A stretch of DNA of 42,375 bases, from the NCBI GenBank assembly GCA_017549815.1, contig JAFYNH010000069.1, positions 1-42,375 of the forward strand, in the 5' to 3' direction. The notes below the pieces were generated by a model. That model had not been told where the DNA came from. It was given only the letters and a program-made list of their open reading frames with translations, and searched no databases. Both the position numbers and the translations under genes were made by a program. Numbering within the stretch: position 1 is the first letter of the stretch; each line of letters starts with the position of its first letter. This DNA is from Selenomonadaceae bacterium (GTDB lineage Bacteria; Bacillota; Negativicutes; Selenomonadales; Selenomonadaceae). This document shows, one piece after another, positions 21,285 to 42,375 of this stretch.

Positions 21285-21371
21285 TGGTGCCGAAGGCCGG
21301 ACTCGAACCGGCACGTAGTTGCCTACGGCAGATTTTGAGTCTGCTGCGTCTGCCAATTCCGCCACTTCGGC
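21285..21371 (-). tRNA. tRNA-Leu (anticodon CAA)
   Basis: An 87-base minus-strand tRNA with encoded CCA. It begins GCCGAAGTGGCGGAATTGGC, has the anticodon loop ACTCAAAAT with CAA, a long variable arm with stem GTAGGCAACTAC as expected of a class II tRNA, and a T-arm GGTTCGAGTCC. The acceptor stem GCCGAAG pairs with CTTCGGC. A matched promoter lies just upstream (21381-21409). Confidence 0.97.
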
Positions 21372-30049: not shown

Positions 30050-30067
30050 TTTTAACGGGTGATGAAA

Positions 30068-31129
30068 ATGTTTGAGAGAAAATTGACAAGACAAATTAGC
30101 GTTGGGAAAGTAAAAGTCGGCGGCGGTGCTCCGATAAGTATTCAATCTATGACGAATACGAAAACTCACGACGCGGCGGCGACCATTGAACAAATTCAGC
30201 GGCTCGCGGCGGAAGGTTGCGATATTGCTCGCGTGGCAGTTCCCGATATGGCGGCGGCTAAAGCTCTGGGCAAAATTATTTCGGCGGTTGACTTGCCGAT
30301 TGTCGCAGATATTCAATTCGATTATAAGCTCGCGCTCGAATCGATTGCGGAAGGCGTGGCGGCGTTAAGATTGAATCCCGGCAATATCGGCGGGGCGGCT
30401 CATGTTCGCGAAGTAGTCAAATCTGCGCGGGCGGCAAATATCCCGATAAGAATCGGCGTCAATGCAGGTTCGCTTAGTAGAAAAATTTTGGCAAAATACG
30501 GCGGCGCGACTCCCGAAGCACTGGTTGAATCGGCGTTGGAGCACGTGGCGATTTTGGAGGCGGAAGATTTTTTTGACATAAAAATTTCGCTCAAAGCGCA
30601 TGACGTGCCGTTGACTTTAGCCGCTTACCGATTGATGAGCGAGAAAAAAAATTACCCGCTCCATTTGGGCATAACGGAGGCGGGCACTGTCAACACGGGC
30701 GTTATAAAATCGGCGGTAGGTATCGGCGCGTTGTTGGCTGAAGGTATCGGCGATACTATCCGCGTTTCGTTGACGGGCGACCCTGTCGTCGAAGTTACGG
30801 TTGCCAAAGAGATTTTGAAATCGCTCGGACTGCGCGACGGCGGAGTTACTCTGGTTGCCTGTCCGACTTGCGGGCGCACCAAAATTAATCTTCCCGCTAT
30901 CGCCGCGCAGGTTGAGGAAAAAATTTCTTCCATTAAAAAGACTATGACGGTTGCGGTTATGGGTTGCGTCGTCAACGGTCCCGGCGAGGCGCGTACTGCC
31001 GACGTTGGGATTGCCGGAGCCGACGGCGAAGGAATTATTTTCCGCAAAGGCGTTATCGTTCGCAAAGTTCCCGAATCCGAACTTGTCGCCGAACTTTTCA
31101 AAGAGATTGATTCGATTCTGGCTGAGTAA
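30068..31129 (+). CDS. ispG: 4-hydroxy-3-methylbut-2-enyl diphosphate synthase
   Basis: IspG (GcpE) is the iron-sulfur enzyme of the MEP isoprenoid pathway that converts MEcPP to HMBPP. The 353-residue protein has VKVGGGAPISIQSMTNTKT at the N-terminus, a TIM-barrel region with AALRLNPGNIGG, and the C-terminal [4Fe-4S] ligands in VACPTCGRT and GCVVNGPGEA. Typical bacterial length. GTG 30059 and ATG 30062 are in-frame alternatives; ATG 30068 best fits the GGGTGA site and the family start. Confidence 0.95.
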   Translation: MFERKLTRQISVGKVKVGGGAPISIQSMTNTKTHDAAATIEQIQRLAAEGCDIARVAVPDMAAAKALGKIISAVDLPIVADIQFDYKLALESIAEGVAALRLNPGNIGGAAHVREVVKSARAANIPIRIGVNAGSLSRKILAKYGGATPEALVESALEHVAILEAEDFFDIKISLKAHDVPLTLAAYRLMSEKKNYPLHLGITEAGTVNTGVIKSAVGIGALLAEGIGDTIRVSLTGDPVVEVTVAKEILKSLGLRDGGVTLVACPTCGRTKINLPAIAAQVEEKISSIKKTMTVAVMGCVVNGPGEARTADVGIAGADGEGIIFRKGVIVRKVPESELVAELFKEIDSILAE

Positions 31130-31231: not shown

Positions 31232-34189
31232 ATGGAAAAGAAATTAATTGCGGCGAAAAATTTTCTCGAACTTTTTCGGAACGATGAAGAGGATAACGAA
31301 AAAATTATCCAACCTCAATGTTTGAAATCGGACGACGTGAAAATAAACGAAATGTGTTTCTTCAAAATAAATCGTCTGACTTTCGACGAAGAATATCCTC
31401 ACCGTGAGGCATTTGAAAACGTCTTGCAAGCTCTCGATAACGACGCCTTCAATTTTGTTTACATTCTGAACGGCGACAAAAACGGAATAGAATTATATAT
31501 CGGCGTTGTTAAAAATCAAAAGGAGAATAAGCCCGTACTCGGCAAACTCATGAACGCCGCCAATTACGGCAGAAATCTTGTCGGCTCTTTTGAAGGAAAT
31601 TTCGGCGGCAGTCTCTTGGAAAAACTCACGGGCAAAAATTTAACCGATATTGTCTTCGACTCGGCAGAGAAATTTAAAAATGCCGGCGTGATTCTGGGCA
31701 TTCCCTCCGTAAATAAAAAGGATAACGACAGCAAATACGGCTTTCAAGGTATCGACCGACTTATAAACAGTATGCTCGGCTTGAATTGGCGGCTTGTCGT
31801 CGTCTGCGAGCCTGTCTCCAAATCCGAAATCGTTTCCTTGCGCAATGACATTTACGAAATTTATAACAGCGTGTCGCCCTACGCTCACAGGTCTTTTCAA
31901 CATTCGGAGAGCAACGGAATAAATTTCAGTCAATCGACCAATAAATCTACAGCCAAAGGAACCAGCCATTCGGAAAATAAATCTCACTCCGAAACAAGCG
32001 GCAAGCAAAGCGAACGAACAAATTCAAGCCACTCCGACCAAACGGGCAATTCTTTCGGCGAAAGTACTACAGAAAATTCCGGCTCAAGTCAAACTTACGG
32101 CGGCAACGCAGGACAATCCGCCTCCTTGACAACCGAAATCGTCAACAAGTGCGCAAAAGAAATTATCGATTACATTGACAAGGAACTTTTGGAGCGCGTG
32201 AAAATCGGATTCGGTAAAGGACTTTTTAAAACGTCGATTTACTACATGGGCGAAAAGCCGACCGATGCCGAACGTTTGAAAGTCGGAATAATGTCGCTGT
32301 TTCAAGGAAACAATTCGTCTTACAGCCTGTTGCGTTCCTTGCCGCTTGATGTCGAGCGTGATTCAAAAATTCTAACGGCTTATCAAAGCTTTTACGTGAA
32401 CGAAAATAATTTGCCGACCGAAAAATTAACTCTGCTCAGTCGCCCGAATTTTAACGGAAGGATTGAACTCACGACCTATTTGACGACGGGCGAAATCAGT
32501 CTGATTGCGGGACTTCCTCAAAAAGAAATTCCCGGTCTTAAGGTAAAAGAGAGCGTCGACTTCGGCTTGAATTTTAATCGCGGCGACGGAGAAATTCTTT
32601 TGGGAAATCTTATGCAACACGGGCGGGAACTTGCAACCGTGCCCGTCAAGATAAGCGACGCCGTTTTGAACAAACACACTTTTATTGCGGGCGTGACAGG
32701 TTCTGGCAAAACTACGACTTGCCATAAAATTTTGAAGGAGACCGCGCTGAATTTTTTGGTTATCGAGCCTTCGACGACCGAATACAGGAATTTTATAAAC
32801 TCTCCGCATTTTAAAAACGTCATTGTCTTTACCGTCGGCGACGAAACGACCGCGCCTTTCAGATTGAATCCCTTTGAGTTGGTACGCGGCGAAAGTGTTT
32901 CCTCTCATGCCGATATGTTGAAGGCAACTTTTACTTCCGCCTTTCCTATGGAAGCGTCCATGCCGCAAATTCTTGAGGAGGCAATTTATAAGATTTACGA
33001 AGATAAGGGCTGGGATATTGACAGCGGCAGAAATTATTTAGTCGAACGCCGCGCAGATTATAAAATCGGTGACGAATTCCGCGCAGAAAATGACGCCTTT
33101 CCGACGCTTGCCGATTTCCTCAACGCACTGGAAAAAATAGTTGACACCAAAGGGTTCAGCGACAGACTTCGCGACGATTATCGCGGCTCGCTGGTCAGTC
33201 GTTTCTCGAATTTGACTAAAGGCTCGAAAGGCGCGTTGTTTAATTGTCGGCAGTCGACCAATTTTGAAAAGCTTCTTGATATGAACGTAGTTATTGAAAT
33301 GGAAAATCTGAAATCCGCCGAAGATAAAGCCTTACTTATGGGTTTTCTGCTGACGCGCTTAACGGCAGTTATCAAAATGCGTCATCGTCTCAATAAAAAT
33401 TTCCGTCATATAACCCTTATCGAAGAGGCTCACAGATTGCTTTCTCGCGTTGAATTCGGAGATAACGGCTCCAAGCGCACTGCCGTAGAAACTTTTACCG
33501 ATTTGCTCGCCGAAGTCAGAAAGTATGGCGAATCTTTAATCGTCGTCGACCAAATTCCCAATAAGCTCGCGCCCGAAGTTTTGAAGAATACCAATACGAA
33601 AATTATTCATCGGCTGTTCGCCCGCGACGATAAAGAGGTTGTCGGCGATACAATGTTGATGGACGATAAGCAAAAGGCTTTTCTTTCCGCGCTCGAAACG
33701 GGACAGGCGATTGTTTTTTCGGAAGGCATGGAACGCCCCGTTCACGTGAAAATTCAGCCCGTCACCGATACCGGCGCGAGTGTCGCTTCAAATGAAATCG
33801 TCAAGGAACGTTTCATAAAATTTTTCGGCGAAAGTCATCGACTCGCGGAACTGGTTCAGAAATTTTATTCACCTGCGCGGGAGTTGATTAAAAAACTCGC
33901 GACGGAAAAATCTTTGACGGCAGGAATATCGGAGCTTATCACGGATTTTAAAGTCAAGGCGGCTCGTTACTTTGGAACGCTTGATTCGGACGTTGAGGAA
34001 TCAGCAAATTTCTTTACGGAAAATCTCGCGGCAGAATTTACCAAACGCGGCAGACGTGATAAACTTTTTGAAGAGCGATTGGAAAAATTTTTGAGACTCC
34101 TGTTAGTCGAAGAAAATATCGCGACGGAAAAAATCTTCGGCAACCGTGAAACTTTCCGCTTGCTCGATGATTTCAAAAGTTATTTTTAA
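31232..34189 (+). CDS. HerA/DUF87-type ATPase with Ser/His-rich insert
   Basis: A 985-residue P-loop ATPase of the HerA/FtsK superfamily. The N-terminal 230 residues are unassigned. Residues about 229-300 form a low-complexity insert of S, N, H, T, G and Q. A beta-barrel-like region precedes the ATPase (IPGLKVKESVDFGLNFNRGD, then RELATVPVKISDAVLNKHTF). Walker A is GVTGSGKTT (487-495), then VIEPSTTEYRNF and FRLNPFEL, and Walker B LIEEAHRLL with E731-E732. The C-terminal 200 residues are helical. HerA-like enzymes act as hexameric DNA or protein translocases in repair, conjugation and phage defence. First gene of a nine-gene operon; the start follows GACGGAGG. What it moves is unknown. Confidence 0.8.
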   Translation: MEKKLIAAKNFLELFRNDEEDNEKIIQPQCLKSDDVKINEMCFFKINRLTFDEEYPHREAFENVLQALDNDAFNFVYILNGDKNGIELYIGVVKNQKENKPVLGKLMNAANYGRNLVGSFEGNFGGSLLEKLTGKNLTDIVFDSAEKFKNAGVILGIPSVNKKDNDSKYGFQGIDRLINSMLGLNWRLVVVCEPVSKSEIVSLRNDIYEIYNSVSPYAHRSFQHSESNGINFSQSTNKSTAKGTSHSENKSHSETSGKQSERTNSSHSDQTGNSFGESTTENSGSSQTYGGNAGQSASLTTEIVNKCAKEIIDYIDKELLERVKIGFGKGLFKTSIYYMGEKPTDAERLKVGIMSLFQGNNSSYSLLRSLPLDVERDSKILTAYQSFYVNENNLPTEKLTLLSRPNFNGRIELTTYLTTGEISLIAGLPQKEIPGLKVKESVDFGLNFNRGDGEILLGNLMQHGRELATVPVKISDAVLNKHTFIAGVTGSGKTTTCHKILKETALNFLVIEPSTTEYRNFINSPHFKNVIVFTVGDETTAPFRLNPFELVRGESVSSHADMLKATFTSAFPMEASMPQILEEAIYKIYEDKGWDIDSGRNYLVERRADYKIGDEFRAENDAFPTLADFLNALEKIVDTKGFSDRLRDDYRGSLVSRFSNLTKGSKGALFNCRQSTNFEKLLDMNVVIEMENLKSAEDKALLMGFLLTRLTAVIKMRHRLNKNFRHITLIEEAHRLLSRVEFGDNGSKRTAVETFTDLLAEVRKYGESLIVVDQIPNKLAPEVLKNTNTKIIHRLFARDDKEVVGDTMLMDDKQKAFLSALETGQAIVFSEGMERPVHVKIQPVTDTGASVASNEIVKERFIKFFGESHRLAELVQKFYSPARELIKKLATEKSLTAGISELITDFKVKAARYFGTLDSDVEESANFFTENLAAEFTKRGRRDKLFEERLEKFLRLLLVEENIATEKIFGNRETFRLLDDFKSYF

Positions 34190-34201
34190 GGAGGAATTTT
34201 T

Positions 34202-34837
34202 ATGTTCGGATTGGGTTCGCTTTTTTCGGGGATAGCGAATGTCCTCAGTGTCGTAGTAACAAAATTGGTGCCGGCAATAATAAAAATCGTCGGCGTTCAG
34301 CTGGAAAAATTCGGACGGGCATTGGAAGAATTCTTTAAGGAACTCGGCTTAATCGAACGCGAAGATAATTTGGAGGAAATAGGCGATAAGTCGTTGCAGG
34401 CGGAACAGGACGAATTGAATCCCGTTAAGGTTGAAGACTTCGACAGCTACGAAAAATATTTGGCGAAAGTCAAAGAGTATGAGGTCGACGCCGAAAAGTC
34501 CGCGCTGATTCCTAAAGACGATAAAATTCATAAGGCGATTGAAATTATGTTCGGCATGGCGATTGCCAAATACGGTCAGTCAATGGGCGAATTCGGTCAA
34601 ATCGTCGTCAATAATCCCGACTTCTACAGCAAGAGCGGTCGCCTTGAAGAATTCGCAAGCGTTGCCCGCACTAATCCCCAAGCCTTCGCCGAAATCGTCA
34701 ACTACATTGAGAATAAAAATATGAGTACAGAAAAAAATGACGCCGCTTTTGATAAGCTGGTCGAAATGGAAAAGAAACATTCGCCCGACGTTGCCGAATC
34801 GGAAATTTGGACGACGGTCAGCGATATGAAGAAATGA
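34202..34837 (+). CDS. Small protein with amphipathic/hydrophobic N-terminus, unknown function
   Basis: A 211-residue protein with no recognised domain. Residues 1-35 are hydrophobic and Gly/Val/Ile-rich (FSGIANVLSVVVTKLVPAII), likely to lie in or on a membrane. A basic/acidic amphipathic helix follows with EEFFKELGL (42-50), a motif echoed at the start of the last operon gene (EEFFLKLGL). The rest is charged and helical. It starts 12 bases after the ATPase stop behind AAGGAGG. Confidence 0.6.
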   Translation: MFGLGSLFSGIANVLSVVVTKLVPAIIKIVGVQLEKFGRALEEFFKELGLIEREDNLEEIGDKSLQAEQDELNPVKVEDFDSYEKYLAKVKEYEVDAEKSALIPKDDKIHKAIEIMFGMAIAKYGQSMGEFGQIVVNNPDFYSKSGRLEEFASVARTNPQAFAEIVNYIENKNMSTEKNDAAFDKLVEMEKKHSPDVAESEIWTTVSDMKK

Positions 34838-34848
34838 GGTGCTAAAGC

Positions 34849-35304
34849 TTGACGAAATTTTATCTGGCAATTTGCAAAAACAAGTTTTATCTTTACGACG
34901 ACGCTCGCAAGCCCGTCTACATTGACGGCAACCCGTTTTTTGAGTACGAGACGAATAAACTTCGCGAGGCAACCGCCCGATTGATTGAGAAAATCATTGA
35001 CGAAAATAATCTTTCGGGTAAACGCGAACTGAAATTTTTCGTCATAGAAAACAGCGACGCCGTAAGGAATGAGAGTTTCGCAAAGGCGACGGGAGATTTA
35101 ATCGCAAAAAGATTTTCGCTCGGAGATCTCCTGCGCAAAACAATTTCGGAACTCGCCAAAAATCCCAAGCTCTATATCGCGGAGTTCGGTATCAATTACG
35201 ACGGCGAATGTTATCACACGGAGAAAGGTCTTTTGACTAAAACCGATTACAGTTTGCTTGCATTGTCGATTGAGCCTAATGAATTATTAAAATTTGTCGA
35301 CTAG
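34849..35304 (+). CDS. Hypothetical protein of the nine-gene operon
   Basis: A 151-residue protein that I do not recognise. It starts at TTG with GAGGTG 7 bases upstream. It begins with a beta-hairpin-like FYLAICKNKFYLYDD, has a basic helical middle and a C-terminus with YIAEFGINYDGECYHTEKG. No membrane segment or catalytic motif is evident. The next gene starts 16 bases after its stop. Confidence 0.6.
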   Translation: MTKFYLAICKNKFYLYDDARKPVYIDGNPFFEYETNKLREATARLIEKIIDENNLSGKRELKFFVIENSDAVRNESFAKATGDLIAKRFSLGDLLRKTISELAKNPKLYIAEFGINYDGECYHTEKGLLTKTDYSLLALSIEPNELLKFVD

Positions 35305-35320
35305 AAACGGAGAAAGTATT

Positions 35321-36853
35321 ATGGGAAAAATTATTTGCGGCAAATGTCGCTTTGAAAATCGGGACACGCGCAACTTCTGCGAGAAATGCGGCACGTTCCT
35401 CCGCACTAAGGATTTCGATAAAAACGCTTACGAATTGCCCGAAGTAAAAATGATGCGCGTCGTCGAAAATCTTTTACACGTTCCGCACGAGCCGATTAAC
35501 TGGGACGCGGTTATCGACGCTTATTCCGCCAAAGTCGAGAGATTCGACGCCCTCTTTAAAATCCCGGGCATGGGCGCGGAAAATAATTCTGCCGTCGTTC
35601 AAAAAATGTCGGACTTCCTGAGCCTGTGCAGAAATCCCGATTTCCAAATTGCCTTTGTCGGCACGATTAAGACAGGCAAATCAACGTTGATTAATGCGCT
35701 TCTCGGAAAAAATTATGCGTCAATGGCTGTCACGCCCGAAACTGCCGCGCTTACAAAATTTCGTTCAAGTCCTCGCGATTACGTCAAAATAATTTTCTAC
35801 ACTCACAGCGAATGGACTAAACTTTGGAATTCGCGCACAAGCGGCGCATCGGCTTTCATGGCGGAATATGAAGAATTGCAGGGCGACAAGCACAAGGATA
35901 AATGGATTAATCACGCGCCGATTCATAAGGAATTGGCTAACGAAGAAATTGAGGACGAGCTTAAAATTTGGTCGAGTTCAAAGCAGGCTGAACATTATTT
36001 TGTTAAAGAAATTGAAGTAGGCATTTCAACATTGGGAAAAGATTTTCCGCCGCAAGTTGTCTTTGTCGACACGCCGGGACTTTCAGACCCCGTCGCTTAT
36101 CGTTCCGAATTGACTAAAGAATATATTCGCCGCGCCAACGCCGTTTTCGTTTGCATAGACGCGCAGAAAATTCAGAAGGAAGAAATAGATACAATCTCGT
36201 CTGTCTTTGCGTTTTCGTCCGATAACAAAAGCAAAGTTCACATAGTCGCCACGCATTGGGACGTTTTAAACGATCCGGAAGATGATTGGCGGGAGCAAAA
36301 AAAATATTTGGTAAAGCGATTGACAGGTCCGGCATTCTTTGACATGCAAGCGACGGCATCAACAAATATCATGCATTCGGCGGCGTACATTTACAATCTT
36401 TGTCGCGATTATGATTCGTTGGACAAAAAGGGACTCAAATCTTTGAAAAAATTCGCATTGGATTTCGATTACGAATTGCCGCAAGATTTACGCGCCATGC
36501 AAAAGAAAGCCAACGTTGAAACGATTCTTCGCGTGATTCGAGATAATCTCGCCGCAAGATATAAACGACTTTTGACGAACGAAATCGAAAAGAAGTTTCT
36601 GGATATTAAGTACAATCTCACGCGCACGACCAAAGAGAAAAAGGACAGCACCGAAGAACTTTTGAAGGCGTCGCGTTCGAGCGGCAAAGAATTGGAAAAA
36701 CAACTTCAAGAGCAACTCAAACGCTGTGACGCCGTTAAGAATTCGACCGAGCAACTCAAGGCGATTATCGATAAAGTCAAAGATAAGACGGACAAACGCG
36801 CCAAGAAAATTTGTGACAGCCTTCGCCAAAAGCTCAATGCGTCAGGCAAATAA
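35321..36853 (+). CDS. Dynamin-like GTPase with N-terminal zinc ribbon
   Basis: A 510-residue protein. Residues 5-24 form a zinc ribbon (CGKCRFENRDTRNFCEKCG; two CxxC pairs). The GTPase domain has G1 GTIKTGKST (114-122), G3 DTPG (250-253) and G4 THWD (311-314), with a TPETAALTKF switch, which matches the dynamin/YjdA-type large GTPases rather than small GTPases. The C-terminal third (about 400-510) is a charged coiled coil, as in dynamin stalks. Bacterial dynamins remodel membranes and some act in stress or phage response. No membrane helix is visible. The start is ATG 35321 behind ACGGAG; a TTG nine codons upstream overlaps the previous gene and is less likely. Confidence 0.82.
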   Translation: MGKIICGKCRFENRDTRNFCEKCGTFLRTKDFDKNAYELPEVKMMRVVENLLHVPHEPINWDAVIDAYSAKVERFDALFKIPGMGAENNSAVVQKMSDFLSLCRNPDFQIAFVGTIKTGKSTLINALLGKNYASMAVTPETAALTKFRSSPRDYVKIIFYTHSEWTKLWNSRTSGASAFMAEYEELQGDKHKDKWINHAPIHKELANEEIEDELKIWSSSKQAEHYFVKEIEVGISTLGKDFPPQVVFVDTPGLSDPVAYRSELTKEYIRRANAVFVCIDAQKIQKEEIDTISSVFAFSSDNKSKVHIVATHWDVLNDPEDDWREQKKYLVKRLTGPAFFDMQATASTNIMHSAAYIYNLCRDYDSLDKKGLKSLKKFALDFDYELPQDLRAMQKKANVETILRVIRDNLAARYKRLLTNEIEKKFLDIKYNLTRTTKEKKDSTEELLKASRSSGKELEKQLQEQLKRCDAVKNSTEQLKAIIDKVKDKTDKRAKKICDSLRQKLNASGK

Positions 36854-36866
36854 GGAGGAATGAATT

Positions 36867-38570
36867 ATGGGGTCTGGAAGAGGTAATTGTTGCGTCGGAA
36901 ATTGTAGCGTTGGAAATAGCGTCGGCAAAAAGAATAACGTTAGAAATGGTAACGTTGCTAATTGTTGCGTCGGAGATTGCAGCGTTGGAGATTGCGGCGT
37001 TGCTAATTGTTGCGTTGGAGATTACGGCGTTGGAAATACTTCTGCACCGACCGAGTCAAACAATACAGACGAAATAAGCAATGCAAAGATTCGTATTCAA
37101 GAAATGGCGCAGACAACCGAAGACGATTTGTTTTCTCTCGTCAACCAAAGCACAGCGGAGCTTAAAGATTTCCTTAATCAATTCGCCGTCGAAAAATATG
37201 AAGAGGAAGAATTAAAATTCGACCTTGAAAATCTGAACACGATTGAGAAAAAATTTATCGCCGAGCTTAGCGGATTTATTGTCGCCAAAGTCGAACGGCG
37301 GCTTATTCCCGAAGATAAAGAAGTCGTCGTGATTTTGGGCGAGCCGAATAACGCCAAGCGCAGAAAAAATTTTGAGGCGTTTTACGAGCGGCTCTTTTGC
37401 AACGCGGTTAAAGATTTAATTTCCAAAACGGCGACATTCTTTCAAGTTCAATCGGAGAGTATCGACAAAGATATTTCCGCATTGGAGAAAAACCTCGAAG
37501 ACAAAGGAAAACATTCCGACAAACTCGTCGACGTTCACGAACTAACCAAACAATTCGTTGAGGATAAAAAGAATTCCGTTTGCGACGTGCTCAAAGCCCA
37601 CATTAACCAAGTCAAAGAAATGATTCCCGTTAAATCGATTCGTCTGCAGGATATTGCGGCGGAATTGGACTTTACGACGGCGGGCGACGACGAGGCAGAA
37701 ATTTTTTCGCTGAAATATGCTCACGAAGCGGACGAAAATTCTCTTGCCATTGCTTACAGCGAGAAAGATATTTTGATGACGAAGGCGCAGAATGTTTTGA
37801 CGAAACCGCGACTTGTGCCCGTTCAAAAAAATTTTCTGTACTGCGACTTCAAAGAATTTAACGCGGCGATTATAAAAGTTGCGCGGCTGATGATTGCCGA
37901 AGGAATTTATCCCGACTATGAGAAAAATTTTGAACAAACTGCGCGGGATAATTCAATGTTCGGGGCGAATGTCGAAATCGGCGAAGGCACGATTATTGCG
38001 CCGTTCGTGAGCATAGGAGAAAATGTTAAGCTCGGAAAGAATTGCCGTATTGATTCGGGCGTTTTCATAGGTTCGGGCAGTCGAATAGGGGACAATGTTA
38101 AAATTCTTTCGGGCAGTCGCGTCGGCGTGAATTGCCATTATCATTACGACTTTGACGGCAAGCAGAAAAGTTTTTGCGGCGTCGGTCGGACAATTATAAA
38201 AGACGGCGTTGAAATCGGAGCAAATACGGTGATTCAGCGCGGCACGTTTTCCGATACGGTTATAGGCGCGGGCACGATTATAGGCAATCTCGTTGAAATA
38301 GCGCACGACGTAAAAATCGGCGCGGATTGTTTGATTGTGTCGCAAGTCGGAATTGCCGGCAACGTCACTATCGGCGACCGCGTTCAGATTTTCGGGCAAA
38401 GCGGAATTAAAGATTGGGTAACAATCGGCGAAGGCGCGATTATCCTTTCCAAGTCGGGCGTTACTAAAAATATTCGCGCAGGTCAAAAAGTTTCGGGAAT
38501 GTTCAGTCGCGAACATAAAGACGAGTTAAGGCGGCTTGCCAAGTTGAAAAAAATTATTAAGGAGGAATAG
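36867..38570 (+). CDS. Cys-pentapeptide-repeat protein fused to an LpxD-like acyltransferase domain
   Basis: A 567-residue protein with three parts. Residues 6-57 are pentapeptide repeats [ND]-C-[CSG]-V-G, with 9 Cys (8, 9, 13, 33, 34, 38, 43, 48, 49) and a Cys-free stretch in between. Residues about 65-280 are helical and share a segment ([14 protein letters not shown]) with the next gene. Residues about 290-560 resemble LpxD, with a degenerate N-terminal nucleotide-binding-like part, then hexapeptide repeats forming a left-handed beta-helix and the catalytic-type EIAHDV with His480. LpxD N-acylates UDP-acyl-glucosamine in lipid A synthesis. The fusion is unusual, and I doubt it is the housekeeping lpxD. 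It starts after AAGGAGG, 13 bases from the GTPase gene. Confidence 0.8.
36882..37041 (+). repeat. 15-bp coding repeats for the first Cys-rich arm
   Basis: About ten units related to GGAAATTGTTGCGTC, or with GGAGATTGCAGCGTT-type changes, encode N-C-C-V-G and D-C-S-V-G. The 15-bp register is kept throughout. Similarity at DNA level suggests expansion by slippage. An internal stretch (about 36915-36960) has lost its Cys codons ([12 protein letters not shown]). Confidence 0.8.
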
Positions 38571-38573
38571 ATT

Positions 38574-39347
38574 ATGGGCGGCGGATGCGGTTGTTGCGTC
38601 GGAAATTGTTGTATCGGAGATTGTTGCGTAGGTAATTGCAGTTTTTGTTGTGTCTTTGATTGCAGTGACGGCAGATGTTGTGTAGGAAATTGCGGTGCTA
38701 CTGCTACCACTTCAACTCCTAAAGAAGATCATGCGGTAAAGACGGCAAACGAGCTGGCTGAAATGCGAGAGCGATCTAAAAAGAATGCGGCGGAAGAAGA
38801 ACAGCAAATTGTCGACAACGTTAATAAGACAATGACGGAGTTTATCGAATGGCTTAAAGATGTCAACAAGTCGAAAATCGGCGGGAAGAATTTAGATATT
38901 AACATTGATAAGATTCGTGAACTCAATGACGAGTTGCGGAAAAAGATTGTTGGTTTTATCGGTACTAAGCTTGAAAACAGAATTAACAGCACCGACTCGG
39001 AAGTTTCTATGATTTTGGCGGAGCGGGACGACACCAAACGCAAGAAAAATTTCGATGAATTTTACGTTGCAAGAATGAATGATGCGATTAGAGATTTGAT
39101 TACGGAAATAGAAGACTCTGTTCGCGAACAATCCGACGCTATCGAACGCGAGATTCAAAATCGAATCAAAGAACTCAATAACGTTATGGCGCAAGAGACT
39201 CGTGCTTTTGAGGATTTGAAGAAGTTAAAGGAACAGGAAGATTCGCGGCTCGCCGAAAAGCAGGTTGAATACATGTACTATGCAGACTTGTGCGACGTGA
39301 TGTATAACGAATTGGCGACGAAAAATTTAGGCATCGGCGGCAGGTGA
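38574..39347 (+). CDS. Cys-pentapeptide-repeat protein with helical domain
   Basis: A 257-residue protein. The first 40 residues hold 14 Cys (5, 7, 8, 12, 13, 17, 18, 22, 25, 26, 30, 35, 36, 40) in [NDR]-C-C-[VI]-G repeats, with N-terminus MGGGCGCCVGNCC. A Thr/Ser linker follows, then a long charged helical domain (about 55-240). Its DTKRKKNFDEFYVARMNDAI aligns with the helical part of the preceding protein, so the two are paralogues apart from the LpxD domain. There is no signal peptide or lipobox. The gene starts 3 bases after the previous stop behind AAGGAGG and 6 bases before the radical SAM gene, which makes its Cys arm a likely substrate of that enzyme. Confidence 0.8.
   Translation: MGGGCGCCVGNCCIGDCCVGNCSFCCVFDCSDGRCCVGNCGATATTSTPKEDHAVKTANELAEMRERSKKNAAEEEQQIVDNVNKTMTEFIEWLKDVNKSKIGGKNLDINIDKIRELNDELRKKIVGFIGTKLENRINSTDSEVSMILAERDDTKRKKNFDEFYVARMNDAIRDLITEIEDSVREQSDAIEREIQNRIKELNNVMAQETRAFEDLKKLKEQEDSRLAEKQVEYMYYADLCDVMYNELATKNLGIGGR
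38586..38696 (+). repeat. 15-bp coding repeats for the second Cys-rich arm
   Basis: Units of the type GGAAATTGTTGTATC/GGAGATTGTTGCGTA repeat at 15 bp, with one irregular part (SFCCVFDCSDG). Same unit as at 36882-37041. Confidence 0.8.
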
Positions 39348-39353
39348 GGCGTT

Positions 39354-40706
39354 ATGGAAACTTTAATGTCGGGGAACGAAAAAATTCTGTTCATGATGTA
39401 TGCTGTCGGCAAGGGTTTCAGTTTCGACGGGCGGAAAACTTTCGACGAACTCAATAAAAATCTTCAGTCGGAAATAAAAACTGCCGCTGTTAAACCTTCG
39501 GTCTTTAATTTTTGCGTCGAGACTCCGAAAAAAATTTTGGTTTACAACACGCTTTATAATGCCATGTTGAAATTGACGCCCGATGAATTTCTGAAATTGA
39601 ACGGCAAACAGCCATGTGATGAAGATTTGCGGCGGAAATTTTTGGAATCGGGCTTGTTGGTTACGGCTGATATTGACGAGCGGGAAAGTTATCGATTGTG
39701 GCGGCAGGAGTCGCGCAAGAATTCAAATCATTTATCCGTGAACATTACGACAACGCTGAAATGCAATGCCCGCTGTCCTTACTGCTACGAACACGGCGTT
39801 AAACATGTTGACTTCGACGAAACTAAAATCGACGCGCTGATTGACTTTATCAAGGAGCATAAAAAAGATTCACCCGTCAAGTTGAATTGGTTTGGCGGCG
39901 AGCCGTTCCTTAATCCGAAAATTATTGATGAAGTTACGAGACGGCTCGGCGAGGCGGGGCTTGAATATGAAACGTTTGCGATAACCAACGGCAGTTTGAT
40001 AACGCGGCGGCTGATTGAGGGCAAATTTAAGAAATGGAATCTGCGCGGAGTACAAATCACATTGGACGGCACGGCTGAGCAATACGCCAAGCGGAAAGGT
40101 TACGTCGACGGGCAACAGGCGGTTTTCAAAAAAATTCTCAATCGTATTGCGTGGCTTGCCGAAGCTAATATTCATGTTGACATTCGTCTGAATACCGACC
40201 GCGAAAACATGAATGACATTTTGAATTTGATTTACGTTTTGCAGGCGCGTTTTGACGGCAAAAAAACCGTTGTATATTATCCGGCGTTCGTGACGGGCGT
40301 TAAGGATAAGTTGAGCGACGCCGAGAAAGTTTCATTTGTTAAGGAGATTTTTCGAGCAACAGCGAATCCCGAAAAGTTGAGTATAAATAATCGGCTGTAC
40401 TCTTTTCCGCGAACGTTGCCTTGTATGAGAAACGATCCGCAAGCTTTTTCCGTTGACGTTTACGGCAGGATTTATAACTGTGAGCACTTGGTCGGTCGTA
40501 AAGAAAAAGCTCTGGGCACTTTGAAAAGACTTTCGGATAAAGTTAATAAAGCGCGGCTTGATGAACCTTTGCGCGAAGAATGCGTTGCCTGTGTATTTTT
40601 GCCAAAATGCATGAGCGGTTGCGCGTCGAATATGCGAACGGGCGACGCTGCTTGTATGATTGAACGGTATATGATTCAAGCCTACATGGAATTTATGTGC
40701 GAGTGA
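39354..40706 (+). CDS. Radical SAM/SPASM peptide maturase
   Basis: A 450-residue enzyme. Residues about 1-105 resemble the N-terminal domain of RiPP maturases (ILVYNTLYNAMLKLTPDEF). The radical SAM cluster site is CNARCPYC (C137, C141, C144), followed by NWFGGEP and a TIM barrel (AITNGSLITRRLI, QITLDGT). The C-terminal SPASM domain has Cys in LPCMRN, IYNCEH, ECVACVFLPKCMSGC and AACMIE, which would hold auxiliary [4Fe-4S] clusters. Such enzymes form thioether or C-C crosslinks in ribosomal peptides and, in QhpD, within a larger protein. The two Cys-rich proteins directly upstream are the obvious candidate substrates. The start codon follows GAGGCGTT. Confidence 0.88.
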   Translation: METLMSGNEKILFMMYAVGKGFSFDGRKTFDELNKNLQSEIKTAAVKPSVFNFCVETPKKILVYNTLYNAMLKLTPDEFLKLNGKQPCDEDLRRKFLESGLLVTADIDERESYRLWRQESRKNSNHLSVNITTTLKCNARCPYCYEHGVKHVDFDETKIDALIDFIKEHKKDSPVKLNWFGGEPFLNPKIIDEVTRRLGEAGLEYETFAITNGSLITRRLIEGKFKKWNLRGVQITLDGTAEQYAKRKGYVDGQQAVFKKILNRIAWLAEANIHVDIRLNTDRENMNDILNLIYVLQARFDGKKTVVYYPAFVTGVKDKLSDAEKVSFVKEIFRATANPEKLSINNRLYSFPRTLPCMRNDPQAFSVDVYGRIYNCEHLVGRKEKALGTLKRLSDKVNKARLDEPLREECVACVFLPKCMSGCASNMRTGDAACMIERYMIQAYMEFMCE

Positions 40707-40717
40707 CGGTGGATGGC

Positions 40718-41035
40718 ATGGAAAAATATTTGGAGCAACAGGAAATAATTTTAAGGCAACAGCAAGAGATTTTGTCGATGATTAATCGGCTTGAAGATAA
40801 ACTTGACATGCTTAACTTTAAAGTTCAACGGCAAAACGACGAAATAAATTTACGGCTTGAAATTAATGAACGGTCGACGCGGCAAATCGATAAACAGCTT
40901 GCACTTGCAAACGATTTGAGGCGAAACGAATTATCTGACTTAAAACCGACACTTGAGCAACTGAAATCACTTGAAGAATTTTTGCGGCTCGACGTGGCAA
41001 CGCGATTGATAAATAATTTGGAAGGAGAATCTTGA
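40718..41035 (+). CDS. Small coiled-coil protein
   Basis: A 105-residue, almost wholly helical protein (MEKYLEQQEIILRQQQEIL, then INRLEDKLDMLNFKVQRQND). Its C-terminal LKSLEEFLRLDVATRLINNL matches the C-terminus of the next protein (LKSIEELLRLTAANQMMNLI), so the two share a terminal module. ATG 40718 is chosen behind GGTGG; a GTG at 40697 would overlap the radical SAM gene. The next gene starts at the base after its stop. Confidence 0.7.
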   Translation: MEKYLEQQEIILRQQQEILSMINRLEDKLDMLNFKVQRQNDEINLRLEINERSTRQIDKQLALANDLRRNELSDLKPTLEQLKSLEEFLRLDVATRLINNLEGES

Positions 41036-41995
41036 TTGGAAGAATTTTTTCTTAAGCTGGGACTAATGACGCAAAGGAATCACGCGGAGTTGATTCAAGA
41101 AATCAAGGCATTGCGTACCGGCATAGACGCACTTACTGCGGAAATTTCCGCGCTCGTTGAAATGTCAACCTCGAATCATGCGGAACTAAAAAATTCTCTC
41201 GATATTATAACGAACAAACTTTACGTTTTTTCCGATGCGGAAACCGCGAATCACTTGGCGATTAAAAATTCATTCGACGTTATGACGAAGAAAATCACCG
41301 CCCTTGCCAATATTTCCAACTCGAATTATACCGAATTGAAAGATTCAGTCGGCAACGTAGCTGAAAAAATATCTGCACTTGCCGATACTTCGACTGCGAA
41401 TCATGCGGAGATTAAAGATTCTGTCGGCAACGTAGCTGAAAAGATTTCCGCACTCGCCGATACTTCGACTGCGAATCATGCGGAGATTAAAGATTCTGTC
41501 GGCAACGTAGCTGAAAAGATTTCCGCGCTTACCGATTCTTCGACTGCGAATCATGCAGAGATTAAAAATTCTGTCGGTGTCATAGCTGAAAAAATTTCTA
41601 CGCTTACCGATTCTTCAACTGCTAATCATACGGAAATTAAAGATTCTGTCAGTGTCATAGCTGAAAAAATTTCCGCGCTCGCTGATACTTCGACTGCGAA
41701 TCATACCGAGTTGAAAGATTCTGTCAGTGTCATAGCTGAAAAAATTTCTACTCTCGCCGATACTTCAACTGCGAATCATACCGAGTTGAAAGATTCTGTC
41801 GATGTCGTAGCTAAAAAAATATCTGAATTTGCCGATACTTCAGTTGCTAATCAAATTGAACTTAGAAAATCTATCAGCTTTATTACGAAAAAAATTACCT
41901 CAGATAACTCAGCCGATAAGGAAAGTTTGAAGTCTATCGAAGAATTACTGCGATTAACCGCCGCTAATCAAATGATGAACTTGATTGAAAAGTAA
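41036..41995 (+). CDS. Coiled-coil protein with ten 25-residue repeats
   Basis: A 319-residue protein starting at TTG behind GGAAGGAG. After an N-terminus MEEFFLKLGLMTQRNHAEL, residues 37-286 are ten units of 25 residues of the form ISALADTSTANHAEIKDSVG plus NVAEK, with hydrophobic spacing typical of a long rod or trimeric coiled coil (as in phage fibre or adhesin stalks). The C-terminal LKSIEELLRLTAANQMMNLI matches the preceding protein. No signal peptide or membrane anchor. Last gene of the operon. Confidence 0.72.
   Translation: MEEFFLKLGLMTQRNHAELIQEIKALRTGIDALTAEISALVEMSTSNHAELKNSLDIITNKLYVFSDAETANHLAIKNSFDVMTKKITALANISNSNYTELKDSVGNVAEKISALADTSTANHAEIKDSVGNVAEKISALADTSTANHAEIKDSVGNVAEKISALTDSSTANHAEIKNSVGVIAEKISTLTDSSTANHTEIKDSVSVIAEKISALADTSTANHTELKDSVSVIAEKISTLADTSTANHTELKDSVDVVAKKISEFADTSVANQIELRKSISFITKKITSDNSADKESLKSIEELLRLTAANQMMNLIEK
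41144..41893 (+). repeat. Ten 75-bp in-frame tandem repeats
   Basis: The 75-bp unit is repeated ten times. The copies around 41355-41550 are nearly identical at DNA level (GATACTTCGACTGCGAATCA followed by TGCGGAGATTAAAGATTC), while the outer copies have diverged. This gradient points to recent expansion of the central units. Confidence 0.9.
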
Positions 41996-42009
41996 CTTCT
42001 AAAATGAAA

Positions 42010-42041
42010 AGGAGCCGTCTCTTTTGAGATGACTCCTCTTT
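42010..42041 (+). terminator. Terminator of the nine-gene operon
   Basis: AGGAGCCGTCTC pairs with GAGATGACTCCT (one mismatch, one G-T) around TTTT, followed by a short T-rich tract (CTTTAT). It is weaker than the others in the window but well placed, 14 bases after the last stop codon. Confidence 0.65.
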
Positions 42042-42062
42042 ATCGAAAGCGGCGTAAGACCC

Positions 42063-42130
42063 CTAATTTTAGTTTTTAGGATTTAGTAATCAGGAACTAG
42101 TTCCTAAAAACTCGCTCCTAGTTCCTTTAA
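42063..42130. repeat. Heptad-periodic inverted repeat after the nine-gene operon
   Basis: Units of TTTTTAG/GATTTAG/CAGGAAC on the left and AGTTCCT/CTCGCTCC/TAGTTCC on the right, around GGAACTAGTTCC. It is the only such element seen after 23128. Confidence 0.7.
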
Positions 42131-42159
42131 CAATAAAAGAGGTTAGCCTTCCTCTCTAA

Positions 42160-42375
42160 AAAAATAGTGTAAAACGAATCAACGGTTGAAACGTGGAGGC
42201 ATTAAACTCGCAAATACTACGAAAGGACGGTACGAATAAGTAAAAGTAAGCTGAAGCCGAAAGGTGACAGTGTAGTGGTTGTTTGGCACAGCCTGTGAGA
42301 ATAAGGGCGCACGCTAGCGAATAAGGACTAGCCTCTACAGAGTTCAAACTTCTCATGAATCCCCTGCCTTTAGGC
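42160..42375 (+). mobile_element. Partial IS200/IS605-type right end with possible guide-RNA-like segment
   Basis: The last 19 bases, GAATCCCCTGCCTTTAGGC, match the conserved right-end hairpin of tnpB-carrying IS200/IS605 elements, whose other arm would lie beyond the window. About 130 bases upstream carry several short stems (CACAGCCTGTG; CGCACGCTAGCG), as expected for the right-end RNA (reRNA/omegaRNA) that overlaps the tnpB 3' end. No tnpB is present; only a frame of about 22 codons (from TGT at about 42169 to TAA at about 42237) could be a decayed tail. It is either a remnant or a non-autonomous copy. Confidence 0.5.

Follow-up and report, generated by a model that had tools for sequence, protein, structure and literature searches.

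The window analysed here, 42,375 nucleotides (nt), is the entire contig JAFYNH010000069.1 of a Selenomonadaceae bacterium (assembly GCA_017549815.1; genome G000). Positions 31232-41995 hold nine plus-strand genes, here called A to I, that encode a HerA-type ATPase, a dynamin-like GTPase, two proteins with a Cys-rich N-terminal arm and a radical S-adenosylmethionine (SAM) enzyme. A preliminary description of the window had proposed that these genes form one operon with gaps of 0-16 nt. This spacing is borne out if D starts at the internal ATG at 35321 and H at 40718, while the longest open reading frames (ORFs) of C and D and of G and H overlap slightly. The features are:

31232..34189, plus strand: A, HerA/DUF87-type ATPase of 985 amino acids (aa); Ser-rich linker at about residues 227-286; Walker A motif GVTGSGKT
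34202..34837, plus strand: B, 211 aa, with a hydrophobic N-terminus
34849..35304, plus strand: C, 151 aa, no family match; GxNxDG motif kept; predicted alpha/beta fold
35321..36853, plus strand: D, zinc-ribbon dynamin-like GTPase in which a hydrophobic segment is absent; the longest ORF starts at 35294
36867..38570, plus strand: E, Cys arm, then an F-like helical body, then an LpxD-type domain
36867..37037, plus strand: Cys arm of E (residues 1-57)
37638..38567, plus strand: LpxD-type domain of E, with a catalytic-type His followed by Asp
38574..39347, plus strand: F, Cys arm, then a long helical body
38574..38696, plus strand: Cys arm of F (residues 1-41), Met-Gly followed by CX3[D/N] repeats
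39354..40706, plus strand: G, radical SAM/SPASM maturase
40718..41035, plus strand: H, coiled-coil rod with a C-terminal LRL-type motif (by eye); the longest ORF starts at 40697
41036..41995, plus strand: I, coiled-coil rod with 25-aa (75-bp) tandem repeats and a C-terminal motif resembling that of H (by eye)
42004..42043, plus strand: terminator-like hairpin

Among the protein types named in the preliminary description, the HerA/DUF87 ATPase and the dynamin-like GTPase (both HerA/DUF87 and Dynamin_N above the Pfam cut-off) and the radical SAM enzyme were recovered; the zinc ribbon of D matched below its cut-off (20.8 vs 25), and its CxxC-CxxC pair is plain. Where a terminator had been noted after the last gene, a hairpin lies 3' of I, and positions 42000-42045 fold at -18.2 kcal/mol. 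A simple terminator scan reports no more than a 6-pair core at this place, and no excess of terminators was found by that scan (14 vs 17.5).

Conservation of genes A to G as a unit

The order A-B-C-D-E-F-G occurs in 12 distinct loci (the window, L035, L037-L042, L044, L045, L106 and L109), the hosts being Selenomonadaceae, one Lachnospiraceae (L109) and one UBP6 bacterium (L106). In L045, L106 and L109, F and G are separated by additional small genes; in L044, A is without its first ~176 residues and more A sequence is matched on another contig. Further loci hold parts of the cassette: six of the seven genes in RUG10619 (L107), E-G at a contig start in Fibrobacter (L105), and B-G with most of A in the cultured type strain Mitsuokella jalaludinii DSM 13811 (L104), where a further A match is on another contig. 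We also observed that the HerA gene of a Mitsuokella cassette is split between contigs (G040:C1:346-657 and L044), possibly by an insertion or an assembly gap, and that a transposase-like ORF is present at the far end of L044.

To relate presence of the genes to one another, we used 189 genomes of the family. An orthologue of G is present in 13 of them, in one case (G098) as a fragment on short contigs. Orthologues of HerA, dynamin and F accompany it in 11, 12 and all 13 of these genomes, respectively, and none of the three was found without the radical SAM orthologue in the 189 genomes at the cut-offs used (at least 38% identity for the radical SAM enzyme, at least 50% for HerA and dynamin, E<=1e-20 for F), which were picked after the lists had been inspected. 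Below these cut-offs are radical SAM relatives in 16 further genomes, HerA paralogues in 23, dynamins of 31-35% identity (one partial piece 43%) in seven, including G082, and F-like or broken F matches in G066, G107, G120 and G121. The genomes are related to one another and the Fisher values are nominal. In G082, A is on another contig and in two frames, and G107 (L147) has only broken E/F-like pieces, i.e. a decayed cassette. Moreover, the identity matrices of the genes correlate with r 0.935-0.980, and for none of the 21 gene pairs was the observed value reached in 2000 permutations; part of this correlation is due to the shared descent of the hosts.

A scan of 84,980 species yielded 45 relatives of G. 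Fifteen of these (at least 37% identity) are cassette enzymes, of which 11 correspond to the loci already described or to partial relatives of them, the four additions being L105, L106, L107 and L109. For the other 30 (best segment at most 32%), no A-F gene was found at E<=1e-3 in the stretches examined. In a tree made by a quick method from 16 cassette enzymes and 23 other rows, the cassette enzymes form one clade (Shimodaira-Hasegawa-like approximate likelihood-ratio test support 100). The cassette is sporadic: it is present in two of the 398 genomes of a sample of the phylum, G000 itself being one. Conservation is lowest for H and I, and no match to I was found in L040-L042.

In total, these observations argue that A-G almost certainly constitute a single system. 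Homologues of these genes stay together and are not mostly apart, in line with the one machine proposed in the preliminary description. The cassette, a set of seven to nine genes in some bacteria of gut and rumen, is found across phyla and probably moves horizontally; as a system it is of a new category, though every recognised part belongs to a known superfamily. In the literature, judged by titles and the starts of abstracts, we found no description of this gene set.

The Cys arm, its putative maturase and the LpxD-type protein

In all 16 F proteins that occur with the radical SAM enzyme, the first 60 residues contain 4-14 Cys. These proteins are 227-277 aa long, and the arm is at their extreme N-terminus. 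All 18 arms (16 of F and those of the two E proteins with an available N-terminus) start with Met-Gly, compared with two of 56 other cassette genes; the arms were read from the nearest Met, which in L038, L043, L107 and L109 lies inside the longest ORF. After Met-Gly follow repeats such as CCIGDCCVANCGFCCIGD. The 18 pooled arms contain 55 CX3[DN] motifs vs 23.8 +/- 4.1 in within-arm shuffles (maximum of 2000: 39), and Cys is followed by Cys at +5 in 71 cases vs 27.3 +/- 4.3 in shuffled arms. Thus, by the shuffle test, the Cys repeats noted earlier in two proteins are real in both E and F; E, however, is more than the Cys-repeat protein it had been taken for. Its N-terminal part is a paralogue of F (BLASTP 5e-25).

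Proteins with an F-like body also occur in dynamin loci that have no radical SAM gene, and this body is homologous to that of F (hhalign 97.4%, 9e-12). In these loci, all ten F-like proteins have at most two Cys in the first 60 residues and most have a hydrophobic N-terminal segment. This comparison of 16 with ten proteins included the window and left out two duplicate loci, the E paralogues, the L147 remnants and the Cys-armed contig-end piece L153; of the two search models, one had been made from six of the ten F-like rows. At L148-L152 and L156, a dynamin gene is in a compact locus together with coiled-coil genes and genes for one or two F-like proteins, most of the latter with a hydrophobic N-terminus.

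In G, the CX3CX2C motif and seven Cys of the SPASM region are invariant in the 11 aligned orthologues. The best match of G to a solved structure is 5wgg, which we take to be the SCIFF maturase CteB. All 11 G proteins match the models for CefB (NF038107), Clo7bot (TIGR04334), geopeptide (TIGR04280) and PapB (NF047865) maturases; G of the window is below every cut-off shown, e.g. 156.5 bits vs a cut-off of 600 for CefB and 97.5 bits vs 340 for PapB. The likeness to these systems consists in a radical SAM/SPASM enzyme with a Cys-every-fifth or CX3D-type sequence nearby. In the CX3D motifs of its substrate, PapB links Cys to Asp by thioethers (PMC9413430). As the preliminary description had suggested, G very probably acts on the Cys arm: the arm was seen only where G occurs, G resembles maturases of ribosomally synthesized and post-translationally modified peptides (RiPPs), and the CX3[D/N] spacing is similar to that of the PapB substrate. 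By eye, the first ~45 residues of G in the window correspond in L106 (9850) and L109 (9826) to a small ORF of its own that immediately precedes G.

Unlike in the CefB-type systems, the probable target here is an arm at the N-terminus of a large helical protein whose gene shares an operon with dynamin and HerA genes. Although G is a ranthipeptide-type maturase, it is highly improbable that the locus is an ordinary RiPP or bacteriocin cluster with a product that is cut off and exported. The arm is at the extreme N-terminus of a 227-277-aa protein and there is no short precursor with a core behind a leader; moreover, Pfam found no exporter or protease domain in the nine genes, B and C being without a family.

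That the arm binds a metal or an Fe-S cluster or senses redox, with G doing something besides cross-linking it, is likewise decidedly unlikely. CC pairs and the high Cys content speak for such an arm, as do weak matches of two of the 16 F proteins to the putative metal-binding CC model NF040898 (best E 0.011). The co-occurrence of arm and G, and the matches of all 11 G proteins to RiPP maturase models, speak against it.

Residues 258-567 of E are LpxD-like over the full length of LpxD (NF002060, 208.7 bits, cut-off 207; TIGR01853, 208 bits, cut-off 242.5), and an E profile matches solved LpxD over its full length (2iu8, 1e-44). The catalytic-type His (239 in Escherichia coli LpxD) is kept and is followed by Asp in all 14 E proteins; for LpxA, a His-Asp dyad is described (PMC6286764). 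The other features of LpxD are changed. Asp232 is Gly in 14 of 14 E proteins and His276 survives in one; no Phe aligns with Phe41 in any of the 14, a result that depends on the alignment. In LpxD, Phe41 binds uridine and the C-terminal helix binds acyl carrier protein (ACP) (PMC6286764, PMC6820557). Past the last shared column, E has 5-15 residues vs 23-25 in two non-cassette LpxD proteins. At the Gln236 site, E has Glu, Val or Asp, and this site is uninformative because the two non-cassette LpxD proteins have His there.

A separate LpxD, in which LTF and His are present, is encoded by the host genome. LpxC was found in four of six host genomes and was not found in those of L106 and L109, both metagenome-assembled, in which a second LpxD-like gene (E<=1e-20) was not found either. 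Thus, E was rejected as a true LpxD: Phe41, Asp232 and the ACP helix are gone, and it is present in two genomes where LpxC was not found. Because the substrate-reading residues are changed and LpxC was not found in two hosts, E probably serves something other than lipid A; it probably either has an acceptor other than that of LpxD, with the N-terminal Gly of the arm as a candidate, or plays a scaffold role. It is a real possibility, somewhat short of even, that E is a trimeric scaffold only, i.e. a dead LpxD fold that arrays F-like bodies. The loss or change of the parts that read acceptor, hydroxyl and ACP would fit a scaffold, as would the fusion to an F-like body in the window, L037 and L036 (cut at the contig start), E being the LpxD domain alone elsewhere; the invariant His followed by Asp in all 14 proteins, as in the LpxA dyad, does not. 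That E is a protein acyltransferase seems unlikely.

The other components and the genomic neighbourhood

The GTPase motifs G1, G3 and G4 are present in all 15 D proteins. The nearest solved relatives by sequence are 5owv (8.6e-17) and 2j68 (5e-06), presumably the Campylobacter dynamin-like protein pair and the Nostoc bacterial dynamin-like protein. D is shorter than these, and hydropathy analysis found no hydrophobic segment in it. The Eleos/Dynamins systems (LeoA, LeoBC) also involve dynamin-like GTPases tied to defence. Identity with Eleos was rejected: the cassette has one dynamin only, with a weak LeoBC/LeoA match (5.3e-13, 1.6e-10), plus HerA, acyltransferase-like and radical SAM genes. 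The name Eleos is used in PMC11811056.

A is a HerA/DUF87 protein by Pfam, and Walker A is present in 13 of 13 A proteins. Its best NCBIfam match is NF033849 'serine-rich protein' (156 bits vs a cut-off of 650), and sub-cut-off matches to the translocase models VirB4 and CedD were obtained as well. As in HerA-effector defence, the C-terminal part of A is matched by the HerA chains 8xau, 8yho and 8wiv, which we take to come from defence complexes; unlike in those systems, A has long N-terminal and Ser-rich regions, and a partner nuclease, Sir2 or NurA was not found in the operon by Pfam, NCBIfam and PADLOC, B and C being without a family. For B and C, matches in Pfam and NCBIfam are below the cut-offs or absent. 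In all 12 B proteins, the best 19-residue hydropathy is 1.76-2.30, near the N-terminus. The structural model of C has a mean predicted local distance difference test score of 94.6, and its best structural matches, to CoaX, Hsp70 and uS11-type folds, are weak.

A second HerA class, which the host genome itself also has (L075), is accompanied by B-like genes and at some loci by a dynamin gene. Like the cassette, these NF033849 loci (among L075-L094) encode a HerA protein paralogous to A; of the 20 that were fetched, 13 have a B-like gene and some have a dynamin. They differ in that neither F-like proteins nor relatives of G (E<=1e-4) were found in those 20 stretches. In L075, L077, L079, L080 and L082-L087, an NF033849-like HerA gene is found with a B-like gene and in some cases a large dynamin gene; mostly a ~1000-aa gene lies upstream, and the one scanned (L079) has no Pfam match.

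I contains 7.3 copies of the 75-bp repeat. An LRL..-type C-terminal end is common to H, I and most small genes at the corresponding places, and is also present in L148 and L150 (by eye); this common end suggests that H, I and their kin share a docking site.

Upstream of A by 102 bp lies an ispG-like gene (30059-31129, by eye), and a type I restriction-modification system (by eye) is close by, with ispG and one more gene between. In L037, an MmeI type IIG gene directly follows I; in L107, a LeoA/LeoBC-like pair is ~4 kb away; in L109, type III-D Cas10, Cas7, Cas5 and Csx1 are downstream, with an IetA-like AAA protein nearby upstream; and L106 has a weaker defence candidate, PDC-S01. PADLOC and Pfam were applied to ten chosen flank proteins. 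Insertion sites recur beside ispG (window, L035, L155) and beside AmmeMemoRadiSam-like genes (L039, L041, L042; by eye). In L155 (genome G104), C and D have ispG as their immediate neighbour, A and B being absent there, and D is followed by a repeat-type ORF of 1030 aa.

The insertion sequence (IS) end noted after the operon fits our results: within 42060-42375 there are parts that recur at 84-100% in 13 other stretches of the same genome, each at least 93 bases long, and five of these stretches lie at a contig end or close to one. Inside or beside this IS-like end, positions 42070-42126 are a short dispersed repeat with ~30 partial copies in the genome. A tRNA gene is on the minus strand at 21288-21371. 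The same-genus relatives of G000 are Selenomonadaceae/Selenomonadales, several of them ruminant-derived.

Possible action at membranes and its meaning

The swap between Cys arm and hydrophobic segment, together with the lack of a hydrophobic segment in D, lends new support to the membrane action suggested in the preliminary description. We envisage that G would form ranthipeptide-like Cys-to-Asp/Asn thioether links in the CX3[D/N] arm, and that the matured arm would replace the hydrophobic segment, putting the helical F and hence the dynamin on the membrane; alternatively, the arm would let F sense membrane or redox damage. The chances are even that the arm is a membrane element. The H and I rods would bridge parts. 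A, presumably a hexamer, and the membrane-active B would make up the second module, which would be energised and would set off or carry out the handling of membrane or DNA. The amine acylated by E would not be UDP-glucosamine; a candidate is the Gly at the N-terminus of the arm.

Altogether, A-G with the H/I rods may be a single, horizontally moving, membrane-acting machine that has about the same probability of being a conflict system as of not being one; we hold this combined reading to be only slightly less probable than its negation. Considered by itself, a role of the cassette in anti-phage defence or conflict is evenly balanced, the evidence for it being circumstantial. The most specific version, in which G knots the arm of F with thioethers, the LpxD-derived E acylates its invariant N-terminal Gly, as a bacterial counterpart of N-myristoylation, and the lipidated arm docks the dynamin in a HerA-powered anti-phage machine, is quite unlikely.

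Several findings weigh against the membrane-acting machine or its parts. L107 has no recognisable B; in G104, which is 71% complete, C-D and E-H are present while A was not found and no B is beside C. The hydropathy of the Cys arm (0.41-1.97) overlaps the range of the hydrophobic segments, two of the ten F-like proteins from loci without the radical SAM gene score low (0.19 and 1.02), and E, without the ACP-binding C-terminal helix of LpxD, may be a scaffold. CX2[DN] motifs in the arms (53, counted without a shuffle comparison) are nearly as frequent as the 55 CX3[DN] motifs because the Cys are paired, and therefore the linked residues are uncertain. In the passages on PapB consulted, Asp and Glu are named and Asn is not (PMC9413430). 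Finally, L035, L039, L041 and L042 are among housekeeping genes (by eye).

This last setting would suit the same machine in a non-defence cell-biological role, such as membrane repair, secretion or DNA transfer or positioning, as would the sub-cut-off matches of A to the VirB4 and CedD models. Such a role is nevertheless rather unlikely, given the sporadic occurrence (13 of 189 and two of 398 genomes) and spread across phyla, the restriction, CRISPR III-D or Eleos-like neighbours in four loci and the decayed remnant in one genome.

To our knowledge, RiPP-type radical chemistry is mainly known from released peptides. Here, it would be linked to a protein that stays part of a machine with a dynamin and an ATPase, at the site that a hydrophobic segment occupies in most sister proteins. 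If true, the membrane-acting machine would represent a post-translational route to build a membrane anchor, a new use of LpxD apart from lipid A synthesis, and a dynamin system that is mobile and has no name in the libraries searched.

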